Assembly: GCA_947372405.1 (NCBI GenBank)
Contig: CANBTO010000218.1
Location: 1-7,921 of the forward strand
DNA from: Verrucomicrobiaceae bacterium
Lineage (GTDB): Bacteria > Verrucomicrobiota > Verrucomicrobiae > Verrucomicrobiales > Akkermansiaceae
Reading direction: 5' to 3'
DNA length: 7,921 bases
Below, piece by piece: positions 1 to 7,921 of this stretch; positions within the stretch are counted from its first letter, which is position 1, and each line of letters opens with the position of its first letter. The notes beneath the pieces were generated by a model that was not told the origin of the DNA, searched no databases, and saw only the letters and a list, made by a program, of their open reading frames with translations. The translations under genes were made by a program, and so were the position numbers.

Positions 1-417
1 GTCCTCCCGCGCGACAACCAGCAGCTTACCCCGCTCCAGAACGCTGAGGTGGCAACTCTCGCGAAGGACGCCGGTCACCGTCCGCATGGGTTCGCGCGCC
101 ACATCCAGCAAGGTTTTCAGAGGCGAGTGGGCGTGGGCGATCTCGAACAGGCGCAGCGTGGGCGTGTACTTTCCGGATACCGGGTCACGTCGCAGGTAGC
201 TGCGGCGTTCCAGACAAACAAGCATGCGGAAGATTTCCGCGCTGCCACGGTCCAGATCACGCGCCAGTTCCGCCAGCGACAGCGGTGATGGGGACGCCGC
301 CAACGCCTCCAGAATGTCCAGTCCCTTGTCGAGAGCCGGCACGGAATAGGACGGAGATGTCGAGCTTTCGGGCTTTTTCCTGGAGGCCATAAGGGTTCGC
401 GCTTGACCTTCACTCAT
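1..417 (-). CDS. IclR-family transcriptional regulator (N-terminal part, truncated by window edge)
   Basis: The 139 visible codons read MSEGQARTLM at the start. A winged helix-turn-helix follows at about residues 26-90, beginning VPALDKGLDILEAL, with the recognition region LSLAELARDLDRGSAEIFRML and the wing YLRRDPVSGKYTPTLRL. Residues 120-139 (SCHLSVLERGKLLVVARED) begin the GAF-like effector domain typical of IclR proteins; the rest lies outside the window. IclR proteins bind small metabolites such as sugar acids or aromatic acids and repress or activate adjacent catabolic operons. Its divergent position makes it the probable local regulator of the plus-strand cluster. I chose the ATG at 415-417 because it leaves the AT-rich palindromic stretch non-coding. 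An in-frame ATG at 451-453 would add 12 residues and overlap the start codon of the divergent gene, and an internal ATG at residue 10 is also possible. No clear Shine-Dalgarno sequence decides between them. The family call is firm; the effector is unknown. Confidence 0.9.
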   Translation of the reverse strand, partial: MSEGQARTLMASRKKPESSTSPSYSVPALDKGLDILEALAASPSPLSLAELARDLDRGSAEIFRMLVCLERRSYLRRDPVSGKYTPTLRLFEIAHAHSPLKTLLDVAREPMRTVTGVLRESCHLSVLERGKLLVVARED

Positions 418-451: not shown

Positions 452-1552
452 ATGATCCCAGGCTTTCCACCGCTCCAGAACATCGCTCCACGAACTCCGG
501 CAAGCCCTTTTCCGATTCTCATCATCGGCACGGGCGGCATCGTGAAGGACGCACACCTGCCGGCCTACCGGATGGCGGGCTTTCCCGTCTGGGGACTTTA
601 CAACCGCACATGTGACCGGGCCGCGGCACTGGCGAAGGATTACGACATCACCAACGTCTTCGACGACCTGGACACCGCCATCGCCGCCGCACCGGAAGAT
701 ATCATCTTTGACCTCGCGTTGCCGGCATCGCTTTTCGCCGGGACCCTCCGCCGCCTGCCACGCGGTGCGCATGTGCTGATCCAGAAACCGATGGGTGAAA
801 ATCTGGAGCAAGCCCGCGATGTGCTGACCGCCTGCCGTGAGCTTGGTTTGCATGCCGCGATCAACTGCCAGTTGCGCTTCGCACCCTTCGTCATGGCGGC
901 GCGACACCTCATTGAGACGGGAGTCATCGGCGATCTGATCGACATGGAGATGCGCCTGACGACGATGACGCCGTGGGCGCTGTTCCCCTTCCTCAACGGC
1001 CTGCCGCGCATGGAAATCGTCTATCACAGCGTCCACTATGTCGATCTCATCCGCTCGTTCCTCGGAGATCCGCACAGCGTGCATGCCCGCACGGTCTCCC
1101 ATCCGCTCCACCCGGAACTCGCCTCGGTCTGCAGCACCATCATGCTCGACTATCCGGACCCGCTGCGCGCCACGATCACCACCAACCACATGCACCGCTT
1201 CGGGCCGAAACATCAGGAAAGCTATCTGAAATGGGAAGGCACGAAAGGCGCGATCAAAGCCCGCGTCGGCTTGCTGATGGATTATCCGCACGGCGTGGGT
1301 GACCAGTTTGAATACTGTCTGCTGGATTCTGATGGAAAACCCGGCGAATGGCAGTCCGTCGCGCTCGAAGGCTCATGGTTTCCCGAAGCCTTCATCGGGT
1401 CGATGGCACAAGTCCAGTGCCACAAGGAAGGCACGCTCTCGCATATGCTCGCCGACGTCTCGGATGTCATTCACACCATGGAGGCCGTGGAAGCCGCCTA
1501 CGCCTCGTCCGCGCGCGGCGGCGTGAAACCCTCGGAGTTCGCGCAATCATGA
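452..1552 (+). CDS. Gfo/Idh/MocA-family NAD(P)-dependent oxidoreductase
   Basis: This 366-residue protein has the family's usual length and two-domain layout. An N-terminal Rossmann fold starts at about residue 20 (FPILIIGTGGIV, with the GxGG dinucleotide motif at 26-29). A C-terminal alpha/beta domain of the glucose-fructose oxidoreductase type starts near 145. The family's EKP motif is present as QKP (111-113), keeping the catalytic Lys112. The downstream D-x-G-x-H-x-x-D motif reads YHSVHYVD (191-198), keeping His195 and Asp198, but Tyr191 and Ser193 stand where Asp and Gly are usual. Family members oxidise sugars, inositols or sugar acids. Here a likely role is oxidation of an imported deoxyhexose or a derivative, possibly L-rhamnose 1-dehydrogenation to the lactone, but the substrate cannot be read from sequence. 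The ATG at 452 is the only usable start: an in-frame stop lies at 404-406, no other start codon occurs before the Rossmann strand, and there is no strong Shine-Dalgarno sequence. The stop overlaps the next gene as ATGA. Confidence 0.88.
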   Translation: MIPGFPPLQNIAPRTPASPFPILIIGTGGIVKDAHLPAYRMAGFPVWGLYNRTCDRAAALAKDYDITNVFDDLDTAIAAAPEDIIFDLALPASLFAGTLRRLPRGAHVLIQKPMGENLEQARDVLTACRELGLHAAINCQLRFAPFVMAARHLIETGVIGDLIDMEMRLTTMTPWALFPFLNGLPRMEIVYHSVHYVDLIRSFLGDPHSVHARTVSHPLHPELASVCSTIMLDYPDPLRATITTNHMHRFGPKHQESYLKWEGTKGAIKARVGLLMDYPHGVGDQFEYCLLDSDGKPGEWQSVALEGSWFPEAFIGSMAQVQCHKEGTLSHMLADVSDVIHTMEAVEAAYASSARGGVKPSEFAQS

Positions 1553-2697
1553 CCACGCTTCGCGGCATCGCCTGGAATCACTCGCGCGGCTTCTCGTCTA
1601 TTGTTGCCACGGCGCAACGCTTTGAGGAACTGCATCCCGATGTCAGCATCGTCTGGGAAAAGCGTTCGCTGCAGGCCTTTGCCGACGCCTCGATGGCGCA
1701 GCTCGCGGCGCGGTTCGATCTCATCATCATGGATCATCCGCACACCGCGCTGGCGGCGACGGAAGGTTTGTTGCTTCCCTATGAAGATTGGCTGCCTGCG
1801 GAATTTCTAGCAGACCAGGCGGCGAACCCGGTTGGTGGTTCGAATGAAAGCTACCGCTTCCTTGGCCAGCAGTGGACGCTCGCCACGGACGCCGCCACGC
1901 CCATCGCCACCTGGCGGCCGGACTTGATGGTGAAACACAATCTCACGCCGCCGCAAACATGGGAGGAAGTGCTGGAGCTTGCGCGGCGCGGTTTCGTGAC
2001 GGTATCGGCGTTCCCGATTGACGTGCTGATGCACAGCTACATGTTCACCGCCGCGCATGGGCATGAGCCGTTTTCCGGCGATTGCATTGCGCCGGACGAC
2101 GTGTTGGCGCAGGCGCTGGCGGAAATCCGACGGCTCGTGGAGCTTTGTGATCCGGCATGCCTCAGCCGGAATCCCATCCGCACGCATGAATGGATGTCAC
2201 AGGCGGACGACCCGCGCGCGGCTTATTGTCCGTTTGCCTATGGCTACTCGAATTATTCGCGCCCACGTTATGCGAAGAATCTGCTCAAGGCGGGCGGGTT
2301 GGTGACCTTCAACGGCCGGCGCTTGCGCTCCACACTTGGCGGCGCGGGTGTGGCGGTATCGTCGAGGAGCAAACATCCGCGGGCAGCGATGGACTTCGCA
2401 ATGTTCACCGCGTCTCCGGAGGTTCAGAAGGGAATCTATTTTCAAGGCGGCGGCCAGCCCGGTCATCGCGCTGCGTGGCTGGATGAATCCGTGAACGCGG
2501 CGAACACTAACTTTTTTCAAGACACGCTCCAGACGCTCGACGAAGCGTTGCTGCGGCCGCAATCTCCCGGCTACATGGCGTTTCAGGACGCCGCCACCCC
2601 GAGCGCCCACGACTGCATCGCGGGCAAGTCCAAACCCATCGACGCCGCCCGCGAATTGAACCGCCTTTACCGCGTCGCGCTGGCGCAGAAACACTGA
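1549..2697 (+). CDS. Solute-binding-protein-fold homologue (SBP family 1) without signal peptide
   Basis: This 382-residue protein resembles the periplasmic sugar-binding proteins of ABC importers. Its first strand and helix ([12 protein letters not shown], then [21 protein letters not shown]) match the mature N-terminus of those proteins. [10 protein letters not shown] (56-65) fits the conserved strand after the first lobe. [20 protein letters not shown] (264-283) followed by [11 protein letters not shown] is the classic C-lobe signature. The start sits directly at the mature domain: there is no hydrophobic signal sequence, lipobox or Tat motif, so the product should stay in the cytoplasm. 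The ATG at 1549 overlaps the previous stop (ATGA) and has a GGAG 11 bases upstream (1534-1537). The open frame extends further upstream only by overlapping the previous gene, and that extension contains no plausible signal peptide. No ABC permease or ATPase gene is in the window, and sugar uptake is already covered by RhaT. It may be a cytoplasmic ligand sensor or carrier, or a subunit serving the adjacent CoA-transferase and MaoC enzymes. Function is unknown. Confidence 0.82.
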
Positions 2698-2701
2698 ACC
2701 C

Positions 2702-3142
2702 ATGATCCAGTCCCTATACTTCGAAGACTACTCCCTCGGCACGACGCGCGAGACGCTCGGCCGCACCATCACCGAGACGGACGTCGTCCTGCACGCGGGG
2801 CAGACCGGCGATTTCTATCCGCACCACATGGACGCTGAATGGTGCAAAACGCAGGACTTCAAACAACGCATCGCGCACGGCACGCTCATCTTCAGCGTGG
2901 CGGTGGGCATGACGGCGGGCGCGATCAATCCCGAGGCGTTCTCCTACGGCTATGACCGGTTGCGCTTCATCAAGCCGGTGTTCATCGGCGACACCATCCA
3001 TGTGCGCGTGACCATCAAGGAAAAGCGCGACCACAAGAAACCAAGCCACGGTGTCGTCAGCGAACTCGTGGAAGTATTCAACCAGAACAACGAAACCGTG
3101 CTCGCCTGCGAACATCTGTTGCTCGTCCGCAAACAATCATGA
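2702..3142 (+). CDS. MaoC-like hot-dog-fold hydratase/dehydratase 1 (catalytic residues present)
   Basis: This is a single-hot-dog MaoC protein of 146 residues, the usual length for one-domain (R)-hydratases. The hydratase-2 signature is recognisable at [13 protein letters not shown] (35-47). Asp37 and His42 are at the canonical D-x4-H spacing, although Tyr39 stands where Asn is usual. [14 protein letters not shown] (57-70) forms the central helix and [18 protein letters not shown] (81-98) the conserved strand pair. The family adds or removes water across the C2-C3 bond of acyl-CoA thioesters in the cytoplasm. The gene begins four bases after the previous stop and overlaps the CoA-transferase start as ATGA, so it is probably translationally coupled to it. 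That points to a thioester substrate supplied by the transferase. The natural acyl group is unknown. A mesaconyl-CoA-type hydratase is an alternative reading. No clear Shine-Dalgarno sequence precedes the start. Confidence 0.88.
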
Positions 3143-4284
3143 AACCGTTAGAAGGCCTGCTCGTTCTTGATTTCAGCCAGTTTCTCGCCGGTCCGAGCGC
3201 GGCGATGCGGCTGGCCGACTTTGGTGCGCGCGTCATCAAGATCGAGCGCCCCGGCACGGGCGACATCTGCCGCCAGCTTTACATCACCAACCTCAAGCTG
3301 GACGGTGACAGCACGTTGTTCCATTCCATCAACCGCAACAAACAAAGCTTCGCCGCCGACCTGAAAAATCCCGAGCACCTCGCGCAAGTGAAACAACTCA
3401 TCGCCCACGCCGACGTGCTCATCCAGAATTTCCGACCGGGAGTCATGGAACGCATCGGCCTCGGATACGACGATGTCGCCAAGCTCAATCCGAAGCTCGT
3501 TTATGGCATCGTGACCGGCTACGGATCGACCGGGCCGTGGGCGGAATTGCCCGGCCAGGACTTGCTCGCCCAGAGCCGCAGCGGTCTTGTCTGGCTGAGC
3601 GGCGATGCGGATCGTCCACCAACACCGATGGGGCTTGCCGTGTGTGATCTCGCAGCGAGCGCGCATCTCACGCAAGGCATTCTCGCCTGCCTCGTGCGCC
3701 GCGGCGTGACGGGATTGGGCGGCAAGGTGGAAGTCTCGCTGCTTGAATCCATCCTCGATTTTCAGTTTGAGCTGACATCCACATTCCTCAACGACGGCGG
3801 GCAACTGCCGCAACGCAGCACGGTCAACAACGGCCATGCTTATCTTGGCGCGCCCTACGGCATCTATGCGACCGCTGACGGTTTTCTCGCACTGGCGATG
3901 GGCTCGGTCATCATGCTGGCGGAGTTGTTGGAACTGCCGGCGTTGGCGAGTTATACCAATCCCGAAACCTGGTTCACCGCGCGCGATGAAATCAAGGCGC
4001 TCATCCGCGAACATTTGAAAACCCATCCCACGCACCACTGGCTCGACCGGCTGGTGCCCGCGGATTACTGGTGCGCGGAGGTGCTGAACTGGCAGCAGTT
4101 GTTCCAGCACGCGGCCTTTGCGGAACTGGACTGGGTCATGGAAGTCCAACGCGAGGACGGCCCGACGATGAAGACCACACGCTGCCCGATCACCATCGAT
4201 GGCGTGCGCTTCAAGTCGAAGCTGGGTGCTCCGCGCGTCGGGCAGCACACGGAGAAAATAACAGAGGAATTTGGACTCATATGA
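3139..4284 (+). CDS. Class III (CaiB/BaiF-type) CoA-transferase
   Basis: This 381-residue protein has the family's usual length and all major landmarks. They are [18 protein letters not shown] at 6-23; [13 protein letters not shown] at 30-42; the [15 protein letters not shown] region at 66-79; [19 protein letters not shown] at 93-111; GYGSTGPW at 127-134; the catalytic aspartate Asp170 in [11 protein letters not shown] (166-176); and [12 protein letters not shown] at 237-248 in the second domain. The C-terminus carries the typical [11 protein letters not shown] (364-374). Class III enzymes move CoA between carboxylic acids through an aspartyl-CoA thioester, without ATP. Known members act on formate/oxalate, carnitine/crotonobetaine, succinate/malate or mesaconyl-CoA. 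Here the gene lies between a MaoC hydratase and a sugar mutarotase, which is unusual company and suggests a sugar-acid or sugar-derived acid as acceptor; that is inference. It overlaps both neighbours as ATGA. Acyl specificity cannot be assigned. Confidence 0.92.
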
Positions 4285-4619
4285 ACCGCTACGGAGCAGT
4301 TGTCGGCGTCAAGCCGGAGAAGGTGGCGCGCTACAAGGAACTGCATGCGGCCGCATGGCCGGACGTGCTGGCGATCATCAAGCGCAGCCATATCCAGAAC
4401 TACTCGATCTATCTGCGCACACTCGCGGACGGACGGCCTTACCTTTTCAGTTACTTTGAATATGCCGGCGACGATTTCACGGCGGACATGGCGTTGATGC
4501 TTGACGATCCCATCACCAAGCGCTGGTGGGCCGAATGCGTGCCGTGCCTGGAATTGTTGCCGGACCGTGCGCCAGGTGAAGTCTGGTCGCCGCTGGAAGA
4601 AGTGTTCCACCTCGATTGA
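4281..4619 (+). CDS. rhaM: L-rhamnose mutarotase (RhaM/DUF718 family)
   Basis: This 112-residue protein matches the small ferredoxin-like-fold sugar mutarotases (EC 5.1.3.32). YKELHAAAWPDVL (18-30) contains Tyr18 and His22, the position of the catalytic His in E. coli RhaM. NYSIYL (40-45) and TKRWWAECVPC (79-89), with the Trp pair, form the sugar pocket, and the end LEEVFHLD is family-typical. It speeds interconversion of the alpha and beta anomers of L-rhamnose in the cytoplasm, so that incoming sugar reaches the form used by the next enzyme. The ATG at 4281 is inside the ATGA overlap with the CoA-transferase gene. A GAGGA at 4264-4268, 12 bases upstream, supports this start over longer readings that run back into the upstream gene. 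RhaT immediately downstream strengthens the rhamnose assignment. Related DUF718 proteins act on L-fucose, so fucose remains a weaker alternative. Confidence 0.88.
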   Translation: MNRYGAVVGVKPEKVARYKELHAAAWPDVLAIIKRSHIQNYSIYLRTLADGRPYLFSYFEYAGDDFTADMALMLDDPITKRWWAECVPCLELLPDRAPGEVWSPLEEVFHLD

Positions 4620-4671
4620 TTCCATGTAACCACTGGAAGCACAAGATCCAACATCACACGGAAAAAAACCA

Positions 4672-5730
4672 ATGTCCTTTCCCATCACCGGCATCCTGCT
4701 CCACGCGGTCGGCGCGCTCGCCGCCGCCATTTGTTTCACTCCGCAGCACAAGATCCGCAACTGGAGCTATGAGAGTTTCTGGTTCTGGATGTGCCTGAGC
4801 TCATGGCTCCTGCTGCCGATCATCGGCTCGATCCTCGTCATCCCGCATCTATCAGATGTCCTCTCAGCCTCGCCGCGGGATGCGATGTGGCAATCGTTCG
4901 GCTACGGAGCGGCCTACGGACTGGGCGGCATGGCCTTTGGTTTCGCCATCCGCTACATCGGCTACTCACTCACCTACGCGCTCGCCATCGGACTTTCCGC
5001 CATGCTGGGGTTTTTCCTGCCTCCGCTGATCACGGGAACTCTGAATCTATCACAACCCGGCAGCAACACCATCATCACCGGAATGCTCGTGGGTTTTCTT
5101 GGCACCCTCTTTTGCGGGCTGGCGGGACGTCGCAAGGAGGTGGAAATACAAACATCCGGCAAAGGGCATGAAACCCTCTTCAAACCGGCGATCGGCATTC
5201 CGCTCTGTGTGCTCGCCGGCGTGCTGTCCGCGGTTTACAGCGTGGCACTGGGTTCCGCGAAACCGATTGCGGATGTCGCCCTCGCGGGCGGAGCCAGCCC
5301 GGATTTCGTGATCAACATCAATTTCCTTTTCGCCAGCACCGGAGCATTCTGCTGCATTCTGCCGATTACGTTGTGGAAACTATCCAAGGCCGGCAAGCTG
5401 CGCGAACTCGTCGGCGGCGGTATGAATGCCAACACGGTCCCCTTGAGCAACATCCTTTGGAGCGGCACCGCGGGCTTGCTGTGGTATCTGCAGTTCATCT
5501 TCTACGGCATGGGCGCGAACCGAATGGGAAAGGCGAGCACCGTGGATTGGCCGCTGCACATGATCATGCTCATCCTTTTCAGCACGATCGTCGCCATCAT
5601 CCGCAAGGAATGGACGACCTGCTCGGCCACCACCAAATTCCTGATCACCATCGCCATCGCCATCCTGGTGCTCGCCGTGATAGTCATCGGCTATGGCAAC
5701 CAGTTGAATCAATCCTCTGCCACCCACTAA
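4672..5730 (+). CDS. rhaT: L-rhamnose/H+ symporter RhaT
   Basis: This is a 352-residue polytopic membrane protein with about ten predicted membrane spans, roughly at 5-22, 35-57, 76-95, 97-117, 132-151, 173-192, 215-240, 263-285, 297-313 and 325-345. That is the size and topology of E. coli RhaT (drug/metabolite transporter superfamily). Recognisable family segments are [19 protein letters not shown] followed by [51 protein letters not shown]; and DWPLHMIML. It imports L-rhamnose by proton symport across the inner membrane. It follows the mutarotase gene by 52 bases, the largest gap between adjacent plus-strand genes here. An A-rich GGAAAAAAA precedes the start at 4672 in place of a strong Shine-Dalgarno sequence. 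It ends four bases before the second MaoC gene. Close relatives could carry other 6-deoxyhexoses such as L-fucose or L-lyxose. Confidence 0.93.
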
Positions 5731-5734
5731 CCTC

Positions 5735-6250
5735 ATGGAACGCAAACCCCACAACACGCCCAAGGAACAACACGCCTCCGTCCCCGTATGGAACGCCGAG
5801 GACTGGTTCTACGAAGACATCGTCATCGGCCACCAGATCCGCTCGATCCGCCGCACGATTTCCGAAGGCGAGAGCATGCAGTTCAACGCGCTGGTGTTGG
5901 ACATGCACCCGTACGTCGCAGACGAGATCTTCGCAAAAGAGAAAGGCATCTTCGGCAAGCGACTTGTCGCCGGAGCATTCGTTTTCTCCGCCGGCCTCGG
6001 CCTGGTGGCCACCAACTGCGTGAACGCCTTCAGTTATGGCTATGACAAACTCCGTTTCATCAAACCCGTCTTCATCGACGACACGATCTACACGATCAAG
6101 ACCGATCTGGAAAAATCCCCCAAATATCCCGACATGGGCCTCTACCGCGCGTCCTACGAGATCTTCAAGAACGACGGAGAACTCGTGCTCTATTGCGAGC
6201 ACATCCAGACCGTAAAATACCGCCACCCGGAAAACTTCACTTCCAAGTAA
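5735..6250 (+). CDS. MaoC-like hot-dog-fold protein 2 (catalytic His missing)
   Basis: This 171-residue single-hot-dog MaoC protein has about 24 extra N-terminal residues compared with the first MaoC protein in this cluster. The two are clear paralogues: both carry [15 protein letters not shown] and a matching CEH near the C-terminus. In the catalytic loop Asp56 is present ([14 protein letters not shown]), but the position five residues later, where the hydratase His belongs, is Val61, and the conserved HG before the central helix is AG (79-80). A His at D+2 (His58) is at the wrong spacing. The product is therefore probably not an ordinary hydratase on its own. It may be a non-catalytic partner that shapes the acyl pocket of the first protein, as in HadA/HadB of mycobacteria, or it may have changed chemistry. 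It starts four bases after the rhaT stop and ends three bases before the lactonase gene, so it belongs to the same transcript. Confidence 0.85.
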
Positions 6251-6253
6251 GCC

Positions 6254-7102
6254 ATGGACCGCATCGACACCCACCTGCACCTCATCTATCCGGAATGCTT
6301 CAGCTACGACTGGACCGCAGGTTTCCCCGCTCTGGCAGGACAGGCTTTCCGCGTGGACGGATACCGCGCGGCGGCAGCCGGATCGGACATCGGCGAGTCG
6401 ATCTTCATGGAAGTCGATGTGCCGGGCGACGAGTCGATGTCCGAGTCCGCCTTCTTCTGCGCGCTTGCGGAGGATCCTGCCAACCGCATGACCGGCGTCA
6501 TCGCCGCCTGCCGTCCGGAACATGCGAATTTCGCCGCGCAACTTGAAGCCACCTACCACCCGTTGCTGGTCGGCTACCGGCGTGTGCTCCACACTCAGCC
6601 GGACGAACTTTCCACCAACTCTCTCTTCCGCGAAAACGTGGCGCTCGTCGGCAAGTCCGGGCTCACCTTCGACCTCTGCCTGCTCCCGCGCCAACTCGCC
6701 ACCGGCGCCGCCCTTATCGACGCCTGCCCGGACACCCGCTTCATCCTCGACCATTGCGGCGTGCCAGACATCGCCTCCGGCGATCTCGCCTTCTGGCGCG
6801 AACAACTCCGCGAAATTTCCCGTCGCCCGAATCTCACCTGCAAGATCTCCGGCATCATCGCCTATGCCGCTGGCGATATCACCGCGGACACCCTGCGTCC
6901 GGTCGTCGAACACGCCGTCGACTGCTTCGGCTGGGACCGCCTCGTATGGGGCAGCGACTGGCCGGTCTGCAACCTCACCCGCGATCTTGCCTGTTGGACC
7001 CGTCTCCTCGATGAAATTCTATCCGGTAGTTCCGGGGACGAACTCGCCCGCCTTTATCATCGCAACGCCCGCGAAATTTACCGCCTTAAGCCGCTTGCCT
7101 GA
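6254..7102 (+). CDS. COG3618 amidohydrolase, probable deoxy-sugar lactonase (rhamnono-/fuconolactonase type)
   Basis: This 282-residue TIM-barrel hydrolase belongs to the amidohydrolase superfamily. The N-terminal DTHLHL (5-10) supplies His7 and His9. VGYRRVLH (106-113) is the conserved strand with the Arg pair. FILDHCGVPDI (163-173) gives His167 on a later strand. VWGSDWPVCN (231-240) gives the catalytic Asp235. Members of COG3618 hydrolyse L-fucono-lactone, L-rhamnono-1,4-lactone and 2-pyrone-4,6-dicarboxylate. Next to RhaT and a mutarotase, opening of a deoxyhexonolactone to the free aldonate is the best reading. The start at 6254, three bases after the previous stop, places the metal-binding motif at residues 5-10 as usual. 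No signal peptide is present, so it acts in the cytoplasm. Rhamnonolactone versus fuconolactone cannot be decided from sequence alone. Confidence 0.86.
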   Translation: MDRIDTHLHLIYPECFSYDWTAGFPALAGQAFRVDGYRAAAAGSDIGESIFMEVDVPGDESMSESAFFCALAEDPANRMTGVIAACRPEHANFAAQLEATYHPLLVGYRRVLHTQPDELSTNSLFRENVALVGKSGLTFDLCLLPRQLATGAALIDACPDTRFILDHCGVPDIASGDLAFWREQLREISRRPNLTCKISGIIAYAAGDITADTLRPVVEHAVDCFGWDRLVWGSDWPVCNLTRDLACWTRLLDEILSGSSGDELARLYHRNAREIYRLKPLA

Positions 7103-7131: not shown

Positions 7132-7921
7132 ATGTCCCAAGCCACCATCCAAGGCATCTTCGTCCCGAACATCGTTCCGTACGATGCCAAAGGCCGCATC
7201 GACGAGGACGAACTTCGCCACATCATCCGCTGGCTGGGAGGCAAGGGCGTCACCGGATTCTATCCGAACGGCAGCATGGGCGAGTTCATCCGTCTCAGTT
7301 ACGAGGAGCGCCGCACCGTCGTGCGCATCGTCAGCGAGGAAGCCAAAGGCAAACCCATCCTCGCGGGGGCGGCGGAGCCTAACATCGAGCTGGTGCTGGA
7401 GATGTGCAACTACTGCGCGGATCTCGGCTGCCGCGCGGTTTCCATCACCGGCCCGTATTATTACAAGCTCACGCAGGAGAGCATCGAGGCCTACTTCCGC
7501 GAACTTGCCGCCAGATCGCCGATCGACATCGTGGTTTACAACATCCCGGTGTTCGCCAACGAAATCTCCCTGCCCGTGCTGGAGCGTCTAGCGATGGACT
7601 GCCCGCGCATCGTCGGCACCAAGGACACTTCCAAGGACATGGGCCGCTTCCAGCAGACGCTGCATACGATCAAACGCCAGCGCCCGGATTTCTCGGTGCT
7701 GATCGGCTGGGAGGAGCTGCTCTGCACCGGCCTCTTCATGGGCGCGGACGGCGGCACGCTCTCCAGCGCCGGCGTGGTGCCGGAGGTGGTGATGAGCCTC
7801 TATCAGAACGCCCGCGCCGGAAACTGGGACAAGGCGAAACAGATCCAGTTCGAATTGTTAGACCTGTTCTCGCTGATGGTCGGGGCGCCGAATTTCCCGG
7901 AAGGCTTCCGCACCGGTTACG
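7132..7921 (+). CDS. DapA/DHDPS-family aldolase (3' end cut by window), probable 2-keto-3-deoxy sugar-acid aldolase
   Basis: The 263 visible residues (typical full length is 290-310) form a DHDPS/N-acetylneuraminate-lyase-type TIM barrel. GSMGE (47-51) is the substrate-carboxylate loop, equivalent to GTTGE in DapA. SITGPYYYKLTQE (104-116) is the usual strand and loop. Tyr136 in VVYNIPV is the catalytic Tyr and Lys164 in GTKDTSKD the Schiff-base lysine. The family includes 2-keto-3-deoxygluconate and 2-keto-3-deoxyaldonate aldolases, which yield pyruvate plus an aldehyde; for a 6-deoxyhexose acid the aldehyde would be lactaldehyde. The cluster favours such a catabolic role over lysine synthesis, but a dehydratase-type member (2-keto-3-deoxy-D-arabinonate dehydratase or KDGDH) is not excluded. 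It starts 29 bases after the lactonase stop with no obvious Shine-Dalgarno sequence. The frame is open to the last base. Confidence 0.87.
   Translation, partial: MSQATIQGIFVPNIVPYDAKGRIDEDELRHIIRWLGGKGVTGFYPNGSMGEFIRLSYEERRTVVRIVSEEAKGKPILAGAAEPNIELVLEMCNYCADLGCRAVSITGPYYYKLTQESIEAYFRELAARSPIDIVVYNIPVFANEISLPVLERLAMDCPRIVGTKDTSKDMGRFQQTLHTIKRQRPDFSVLIGWEELLCTGLFMGADGGTLSSAGVVPEVVMSLYQNARAGNWDKAKQIQFELLDLFSLMVGAPNFPEGFRTGY

Follow-up and report, generated by a model that had tools for sequence, protein, structure and literature searches.

We describe a conserved set of genes for a putative coenzyme A (CoA)-thioester unit embedded in a sugar-oxidation cluster of a Verrucomicrobiaceae bacterium. 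The cluster lies on a 7,921-nucleotide stretch of contig CANBTO010000218.1 (the window), which starts inside an IclR-family regulator gene and ends inside a DapA-family lyase gene (Table 1). The unit consists of a class III CoA-transferase (CaiB), a MaoC-type hydratase (MaoC1), a second, non-canonical MaoC-family protein (MaoC2) and a homologue of solute-binding proteins without an apparent signal peptide (SBPc). We give an even chance to the reading that this is an accessory unit, which would feed a modified fucose-type acid into an ordinary free-acid pathway beside its usual dehydratase.

The gene set is conserved across phyla. Scanning one genome per species for MaoC2 relatives gave at least 550 confirmed stretches, and in the best 80 loci (71-99% identity) we counted seven kinds of partner: CaiB, SBPc, MaoC1, the Gfo/Idh/MocA dehydrogenase (Gfo), the RhaM-family mutarotase, IclR and the lactonase. 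Labels required at least 33% identity to reference genes, which were named partly by annotation and partly by eye (SusC/SusD); counts per locus are lower bounds owing to contig ends and genes missed by the gene finder (for example L010, L031, L052 and L128, the last of which was re-read by tblastn). At least three partner kinds were present in 65 of the 80 loci and at least five in 50; no partner was called in seven, several of which are short contigs or gene-finder misses. Individually, MaoC2 was labelled in 74 loci, CaiB in 67, SBPc in 61, IclR in 52, the lactonase in 51 (with six more of another subtype), Gfo in 48, MaoC1 in 47 and RhaM in 41. Uptake genes vary, with RhaT in 15 loci, an ABC ATPase label in 40 (some from unrelated nearby transporters) and TRAP genes in three. 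Judged by their record names, the loci come from Verrucomicrobia, Bacteroidota, Acidobacteria and both alpha- and betaproteobacteria, plus one metagenome-assembled genome each named Phycisphaeraceae and Oscillibacter, and the MaoC2 of the window is 82-84% identical to four Bacteroidota proteins. Additionally, CaiB (E 1e-60) and SBPc (E 1e-20) were both found in 20/20 module-bearing genomes. A compact version, L128 (genome G104), holds CaiB, SBPc, MaoC1, MaoC2, lactonase, IclR, Gfo, SDR, FAH and L-fuconate dehydratase (FucD) genes; tblastn gave no match there, over 19.9 kb, for ABC genes, RhaM or MRMLE9 proper.

The CoA-transferase and the first hydratase keep their catalytic residues (counted in length-filtered sequences from loci up to L085). 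CaiB passes the PF02515 cut-off by a wide margin (332.8 against 23.3 bits), is nearest to transferases for small acids, and carries Asp170 invariantly among 76 aligned sequences; we take this residue to be the catalytic aspartate, equivalent to Asp169 of formyl-CoA transferase. MaoC hydratases act through an aspartate and a histidine arranged as D-x4-H, and MaoC1 has this pair, as Asp37 and His42, in all 49 sequences. It matches the solved structure 4ffu at 191.9 bits and the PaaZ hydratase domain at 97.7 bits (under the cut-off, which is set for the whole fused protein) and, in a second search, 77.6 bits. Given the retained Asp37 and His42, MaoC1 is a plausible CoA-ester hydratase, and since 4ffu is recorded with 12 chains of a single sequence, it may also stand alone. 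The invariant residues of CaiB and MaoC1, the adjacency of SBPc and CaiB, and the recurrence of that pair beside other CoA-ester hydratases (both described below) make it likely that this sugar-oxidation cluster includes a CoA-dependent step acting on a hydroxy acid. That much of the original prediction, which proposed dehydration of a CoA thioester, is supported; its further claim, that this step replaces the free-acid dehydratase, is not.

MaoC2 meets PF01575 yet lacks the catalytic histidine of MaoC hydratases. Asp56 and His58 are each invariant (79/79), and the canonical histidine position is Val61 in 78 of the 79 sequences and isoleucine in the other. The protein may therefore be a non-canonical partner of MaoC1 or a changed enzyme; its predicted structure, at a predicted local distance difference test (pLDDT) value of 34.5, was unusable and was left out. 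An invariant histidine elsewhere in the motif could also fit MaoC proteins that act directly on sugar acids or lactones rather than on CoA esters, with CaiB serving a separate step. We consider that arrangement very improbable, as MaoC1 retains the canonical pair throughout and counts CoA-ester hydratases, including the PaaZ domain, among its relatives.

SBPc is a frequent partner of the CoA-transferase and apparently stays in the cytoplasm. We compared N-termini by a hydropathy test (a mean of at least 1.9 over 11 residues near the N-terminus, with start codons from the gene finder and sequences filtered by length), and the threshold was reached by 0/49 SBPc proteins against 29/39 ABC solute-binding proteins from the same loci; by this measure SBPc lacks the export signal or lipoprotein anchor of that class. 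In the AlphaFold model (pLDDT 95.5) the first strand already spans residues 2-9, and a nearly invariant W-x-H-x-R-G motif begins between residues 3 and 23 in 47 of these 49 proteins (at residue 9 in the window), the other two having been shortened at the N-terminus by the gene finder. The original prediction overlooked SBPc as a partner. Across 31 genomes, SBPc and CaiB lie on the same strand and at most 200 bases apart at 32 of 40 SBPc places, and some of the remaining eight are at contig ends.

The SBPc model has the fold of the ABC proteins that bind trehalose/maltose and sulfoquinovosyl-glycerol (Foldseek E 2.3e-20), with TM-scores, normalised by the model, of 0.84 to 6dtq, 0.84 to 7ofy and 0.85 to 1eu8. 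One of three residues mutated in a glycoside-binding protein of the 6j9w type is kept, as Arg336 aligns with Arg356; Trp287 is not, and Ala116 occupies the position of Asp118, although Asp114, two residues earlier, is invariant. The importance of these three residues was read from the titles of mutant structures. Its fold, and most though not every one of its gene surroundings, lead us to infer that SBPc may bind a sugar or sugar acid. We also considered an MqnA-like enzyme of the periplasmic-binding-protein fold and set this candidate aside, as the 50 fold matches listed were all sugar-binding ABC proteins or maltose-binding-protein fusions.

Relatives of SBPc also occur in other arrangements. 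SBPc-CaiB paralogues are adjacent at L109:8810-12645, with TRAP, MaoC and crotonase genes, and at L110:11860-14979, with sugar ABC, SDR, DUF4432, xylose-isomerase-like TIM-barrel, Gfo and crotonase genes; at L125:2080-8928, with TRAP and crotonase genes, CaiB is about 4.6 kb from SBPc. Perhaps these SBPc-CaiB-crotonase paralogues represent a more general CoA unit with a solute-binding-protein homologue. Elsewhere (L113:4982-15132, L115:508-6286 and L104:645-6008), SBPc relatives of 41-42% identity lie with Gfo and one or two MR_MLE enzymes, together with a URO-D-family protein in L115, DapA in L104 and L113 and a xylose-isomerase-like TIM barrel in L113. A single 359-residue frame at L111:9070-10679 joins MaoC1 to the initial half of SBPc; frame breaks occur in SBPc and in both CaiB genes, and this arrangement is perhaps an assembly error.

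A seven-bladed lactonase-family protein (PF10282), unrelated to the amidohydrolase of the window, adjoins MaoC2-CaiB-SBPc in ten loci (L046, L051, L058, L069, L072, L075, L076, L121, L122 and L132; the PF10282 scan was run on L121 and L125, and the other loci were assigned by similarity). Two unrelated lactonase families beside the same unit favour an aldonate as the acceptor. Instead, the CoA unit might degrade a non-sugar hydroxy acid, such as the acyl or aglycone part of a glycoside, that is co-imported or co-released with the sugar and shares only its regulation. Such a role would suit the CaiB-SBPc relatives found with TRAP and crotonase genes (L109 and one L125 set) or with a glycine-betaine-type ABC transporter (L129), as well as the small-acid transferases nearest to CaiB. 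However, the unit stays with the lactonase, mutarotase and dehydrogenase across phyla, the second lactonase family adjoins it repeatedly, and the fold of SBPc is that of sugar-binding proteins, so we regard a non-sugar substrate as unlikely.

Whether the unit stands in for an aldonate dehydratase, as the original prediction proposed, is a matter of which dehydratase genes accompany it. In that scheme CaiB would make the CoA ester of the aldonate, MaoC1 and MaoC2 would convert it to 2-keto-3-deoxyacyl-CoA with no need of an enolase-type dehydratase, CoA would be handed on and the free keto acid would go to the DapA aldolase. The window itself is compatible with this: it encodes all the enzymes needed, neither open reading frames nor family scans revealed an aldonate dehydratase gene between positions 1 and 7921, and the lactonase families support an aldonate as the CaiB substrate. 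The original prediction named a dehydratase gene beyond the right edge as contrary evidence, and one is present beside relatives, upstream rather than to the right: a relative of L-fuconate dehydratase lies next to the cluster in L001, L002 and L019. Rhizobial loci carry FucD itself, and other loci a split UxaA-type dehydratase. Among the 80 loci, ten show FucD, a FucD relative, the UxaA type or MRMLE55 within the fetched stretch, and 34 show the enolase-superfamily protein MRMLE9, which stands beside FucD or UxaA in several clusters. Fifty-seven loci span at least 18 kb, and 38 of them have some dehydratase candidate (MRMLE9 included) and 19 none. We searched the genomes of eight of these 19: six (L007, L009, L012, L015, L033 and L079) have a FucD-type gene elsewhere, and two (L004 and L049) gave no FucD-type match at E 1e-30. 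In the L049 genome, an MR_MLE gene (L086:9989-11155) lies a short way upstream of the cluster, and UxaA-family genes occur at other sites.

At the scale of whole genomes, FucD-type matches at E 1e-30 occur in 16 of the 20 module-bearing genomes (in G009 the match spans just a portion of the barrel, with 33-44% identity; in G014 and G017 contig ends truncate it) and UxaA-family domains in 15, a count that includes ordinary altronate or galactarate dehydratases. Together, 18/20 have one or the other, one of them as a partial match, and in part these genes lie next to the unit. The two without either, G008 (the genome of L004, a near relative of the window) and the small genome G012 (1.6 Mb), favour a bypass, although the MR_MLE proteins of G008 are nearest to rhamnonate and galactonate dehydratase models, under their cut-offs.

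We also examined 121 genomes of the Sinorhizobium family, which is the family of G020, the genome of the S. meliloti locus L079, at thresholds of E 1e-40 for MaoC2, 1e-80 for FucD and 1e-35 for SBPc of any type. Carriers numbered 15, 45 and 31, respectively, the SBPc count including paralogues from other clusters. FucD is present in 8 of the 15 MaoC2 carriers and in 37 of the 106 others (odds ratio 2.1, p 0.25); for SBPc, the figures are 22 of the 31 carriers and 23 of the 90 others (odds ratio 7.1, p 1.1e-5), both comparisons being uncorrected for kinship. Thus, the anticorrelation with fuconate dehydratase that a bypass would predict was absent, and for SBPc the association was positive. FucD lies within 25 kb of SBPc at 14 of the 40 SBPc places. 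As 23 of the 45 FucD carriers lack SBPc at E 1e-35, the fuconate route there is independent of the CoA unit. Seven MaoC2 carriers have no FucD; in four of them (G066, G105, G115 and G132) the cluster includes a split dehydratase of the UxaA type. The other three (G093, G129 and G137), with neither type in the fetched stretches, would suit a bypass but have MRMLE9, and two also have SDR and FAH genes. Thus, the unit usually occurs together with an aldonate dehydratase, and FucD and UxaA look interchangeable. Taking the module-bearing genomes and the Sinorhizobium family together, bypass of the dehydratase is unsupported, and we consider it improbable.

Related loci point to a fucose-type sugar. 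In L007 (Agriterribacter), GH95- and GH29-family proteins and apparent SusC/SusD genes (by eye) are neighbours of two CaiB genes, MaoC2, MaoC1, SBPc, RhaT, Gfo and a lactonase relative. A GH29 gene lies next to the FucD relative of L002, and an SDR protein of L018 passes the L-fucose dehydrogenase model (351.8 against 300 bits). Rhizobial clusters, L084, L117 and L119 among them, encode FucD, an SDR protein and a hydrolase of the FAH family, the last scoring 425.5 bits in L084 on the 2,4-didehydro-3-deoxy-L-rhamnonate hydrolase model (cut-off 500). The FucD of L084 aligns end to end with solved L-fuconate dehydratases at 561.6 bits, its top match being an unnamed relative, 4ip4 (718 bits); the FucD relative of L002 does so at 349.1 bits, with the ENOSF1-type 4a35 on top (381.9 bits). 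RhaM and RhaT alone are indecisive for the rhamnose type originally assigned, and a fucose-type substrate is favoured by what relatives encode: fucosidase-family proteins, FucD and a match to the fucose dehydrogenase model.

Several further observations touch on the sugar. Genome-wide fitness data are said to tie the pSymB genes SMb21103-SMb21113 to L-fucose; a literature search for six tags returned nothing. According to the accessible part of one report, the S. meliloti L-fucose-binding protein SMc02774 is a component of a CUT2 transporter whose genes have SMc (chromosomal) tags (PMC3454389); the related cluster of S. medicae, by contrast, is plasmid-borne. RhaM relatives with a signal-peptide- or lipoprotein-like N-terminus (by eye) occur at L103:2761-3177 and L096:8913-9353, near SDR, FucD-type or MR_MLE genes and GH29 relatives. 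A relative of microcompartment shell proteins directly follows DapA at L002:19145-19765 (model scores under curated cut-offs), L019:13453-14076 and L103:11872-12492. For Verrucomicrobiota, the part available of another article describes a fuculose-phosphate/microcompartment route (PMC8857213), which is distinct from the DapA route.

We propose that the genes of the window make up the greater part of a cluster for non-phosphorylative catabolism of a fucose-type 6-deoxyhexose. RhaT would import the sugar and RhaM equilibrate its anomers, the Gfo/Idh enzyme would oxidize it to a lactone that the amidohydrolase opens, and the DapA-type enzyme would split the resulting 2-keto-3-deoxy acid. Within this cluster, CaiB, MaoC1 (with MaoC2 as a non-canonical partner) and SBPc would form a separate conserved CoA-thioester unit. 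CaiB may transfer CoA to a hydroxy acid, most likely the aldonate; MaoC1, probably with MaoC2, would dehydrate or hydrate the CoA ester across C2-C3, and CoA would then be handed to the next acid. SBPc could bind a sugar or sugar acid in the cytoplasm, on behalf of CaiB or as an enzyme. The unit would act alongside an aldonate dehydratase (FucD, a FucD relative or the UxaA type) rather than replace it. Because C2-C3 of fuconate is already handled by the free-acid dehydratase, a CoA route best suits an acid that the dehydratase cannot process, and its likeliest role would be to turn such an acid into an intermediate of the standard route. For example, a 2- or 3-O-substituted fuconate could lose its substituent through elimination and addition at C2-C3. 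More broadly, and here we are tentative to the point of doubt, soil, freshwater and plant-associated bacteria might share a CoA branch in which CaiB forms aldonyl-CoA, MaoC1 and MaoC2 act on dehydratase-refractory acids (for example O-methylated fuconate, yielding methanol) and SBPc has been recruited as a cytoplasmic carrier or enzyme.

Besides the two genomes without a dehydratase match, other observations weigh against an accessory unit of this kind. MaoC1 was called at only 47 of the 80 MaoC2 loci, and in the S. meliloti locus L079 MaoC2 lies beside TRAP genes without other partners. Seven rhizobial clusters with CaiB, SBPc and MaoC1 (L116-L120, L130 and L131) lack MaoC2, which is therefore not essential. 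The SBPc relatives in L104, L113 and L115 have no CaiB in the stretch, and the SBPc-CaiB pairs beside TRAP (L109) or glycine-betaine-type ABC genes (L129) have no clear sugar genes; thus, neither CoA nor sugar accompanies SBPc everywhere. The left neighbour of the IclR gene lies outside the window. FucI-family matches occur in the unit-bearing Verrucomicrobia genomes G007, G008, G010 and G012; together with the fuconate-dehydratase carriers that lack the unit, they leave room for a modified fucose, maybe not L-fucose itself. Finally, the O-substituted acid is our preferred guess, drawn from chemical reasoning.

Open reading frames and family scans place nine plus-strand genes in one tight array, divergent from the IclR gene (Table 1), and Pfam scans confirm the families that the original prediction named, including the second MaoC between RhaT and the lactonase. 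Its translational coupling of MaoC1, the CoA-transferase and the mutarotase is also evident, as ATGA overlaps join MaoC1 to CaiB (3139-3142) and CaiB to RhaM (4281-4284); a third joins Gfo to SBPc (1549-1552). The Gfo/Idh/MocA protein conserves the nucleotide-motif glycines and Lys112 (44 sequences) and is probably a sugar 1-dehydrogenase. RhaM scores 47.5 bits on the NCBIfam L-rhamnose mutarotase model, under its cut-off of 99.6. The best NCBIfam model for the lactonase is L-fucono-1,5-lactonase (FuconLaconase; 100.7 bits against a cut-off of 400), and it matches PDB 4dlf at 68.6 bits. The DapA-family lyase is probably a 2-keto-3-deoxy sugar-acid aldolase, its top PDB match being a KDG/KDPG aldolase (131.4 bits), with YagE next.

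Table 1. Genes of the window, with position, strand and Pfam score
Feature	Position	Strand	Pfam match
IclR-family regulator	1..390 (cut by left edge; start codon read at 390)	-	PF09339, 53 bits
Gfo/Idh/MocA dehydrogenase (probable sugar 1-dehydrogenase)	452..1552	+	PF01408, 41.7 bits
SBPc, solute-binding-protein homologue without apparent signal peptide	1549..2697	+	PF01547, 56.1 bits
MaoC1, MaoC-type hydratase	2702..3142	+	PF01575, 86.7 bits
CaiB, class III (CaiB/BaiF) CoA-transferase	3139..4284	+	PF02515, 332.8 bits
RhaM-family sugar mutarotase	4281..4619	+	PF05336, 94.6 bits
RhaT-family sugar/proton symporter	4672..5730	+	PF06379, 148.1 bits
MaoC2, MaoC-family protein	5735..6250	+	PF01575, 48.3 bits
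Amidohydrolase_2 family sugar lactonase, fuconolactonase type	6254..7102	+	PF04909, 167.2 bits
DapA-family lyase (probable 2-keto-3-deoxy sugar-acid aldolase)	7132..7920 (cut by right edge)	+	PF00701, 161.8 bits

Similarity to other loci makes the window a mosaic, with SBPc, MaoC1, CaiB and RhaM (1549-4619) closest to L013 and L019 (80-93%), and RhaT, MaoC2 and the lactonase to L001-L004 (69-99%). MaoC1 lies within the operon in the window, as in L013 and L019, and beside IclR in L001, L002 and L004; L004 is likewise mixed, its CaiB being 87% and its MaoC1 70% identical to those of the window. A search of PHROGs with three of the proteins gave no match.

If our reading is right, CoA chemistry enters a metabolism thought to use sugar acids in free form, and a subfamily that carries the annotation 'ABC transporter substrate-binding protein' has its function within the cell. 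Because the genes are annotated as transport and acyl-CoA metabolism, models of plant and algal fucose-polymer turnover would miss the unit. Its presence in cultured rhizobia and Bacteroidota makes gene deletion a feasible test. In the literature searched, mostly outside subscription journals and in the portions of articles that were accessible, no CoA-transferase/MaoC unit is described in fucose or rhamnose catabolism; this holds for the available parts of PMC9007349, PMC8857213, PMC12542648, PMC9676036 and PMC12911387.

Known systems offer partial parallels. In the carnitine system, the class III CoA-transferase CaiB works with CaiD, a crotonase-type CoA-ester hydratase, and CoA is recycled. 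The unit resembles it in pairing a class III CoA-transferase with a CoA-ester hydratase, and the logic of its CoA recycling would be similar. However, the CaiB of the window scores 83.3 bits on the L-carnitine CoA-transferase model (cut-off 413), and its hydratases are MaoC proteins rather than crotonases. Mesaconyl-CoA hydratase, by comparison, belongs to the MaoC family. In the methylaspartate cycle, as described in the accessible part of one report, this enzyme operates with succinyl-CoA:mesaconate CoA-transferase (PMC5592240). The window likewise sets a CaiB-family transferase alongside a MaoC-family hydratase, but its CaiB reaches 177.8 bits against a cut-off of 700, its MaoC1 24.1 against 26.5 on PF19315, and the gene surroundings differ.

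The closest framework for the surrounding genes is the non-phosphorylative L-fucose pathway, in which fucose dehydrogenase, fuconolactonase and fuconate dehydratase are followed by an aldolase or by an SDR enzyme and a hydrolase. The window shares with it a lactonase, mutarotase, dehydrogenase and keto-acid lyase, and relatives add FucD, SDR and FAH. To our knowledge, the CaiB-MaoC-SBPc unit is not part of that pathway. In Variovorax, according to the part of the article available, deletion of the fuconolactonase abolished growth on L-fucose (PMC12911387). Unlike the sugar-binding ABC proteins whose fold it has, SBPc is without an apparent signal peptide and occurs in clusters with RhaT or TRAP as well as ABC transporters. 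Thus, all parts come from known families and the surrounding sugar route is known; undescribed in the literature searched are their combination and an apparently cytoplasmic solute-binding-protein homologue that frequently partners a CoA-transferase.

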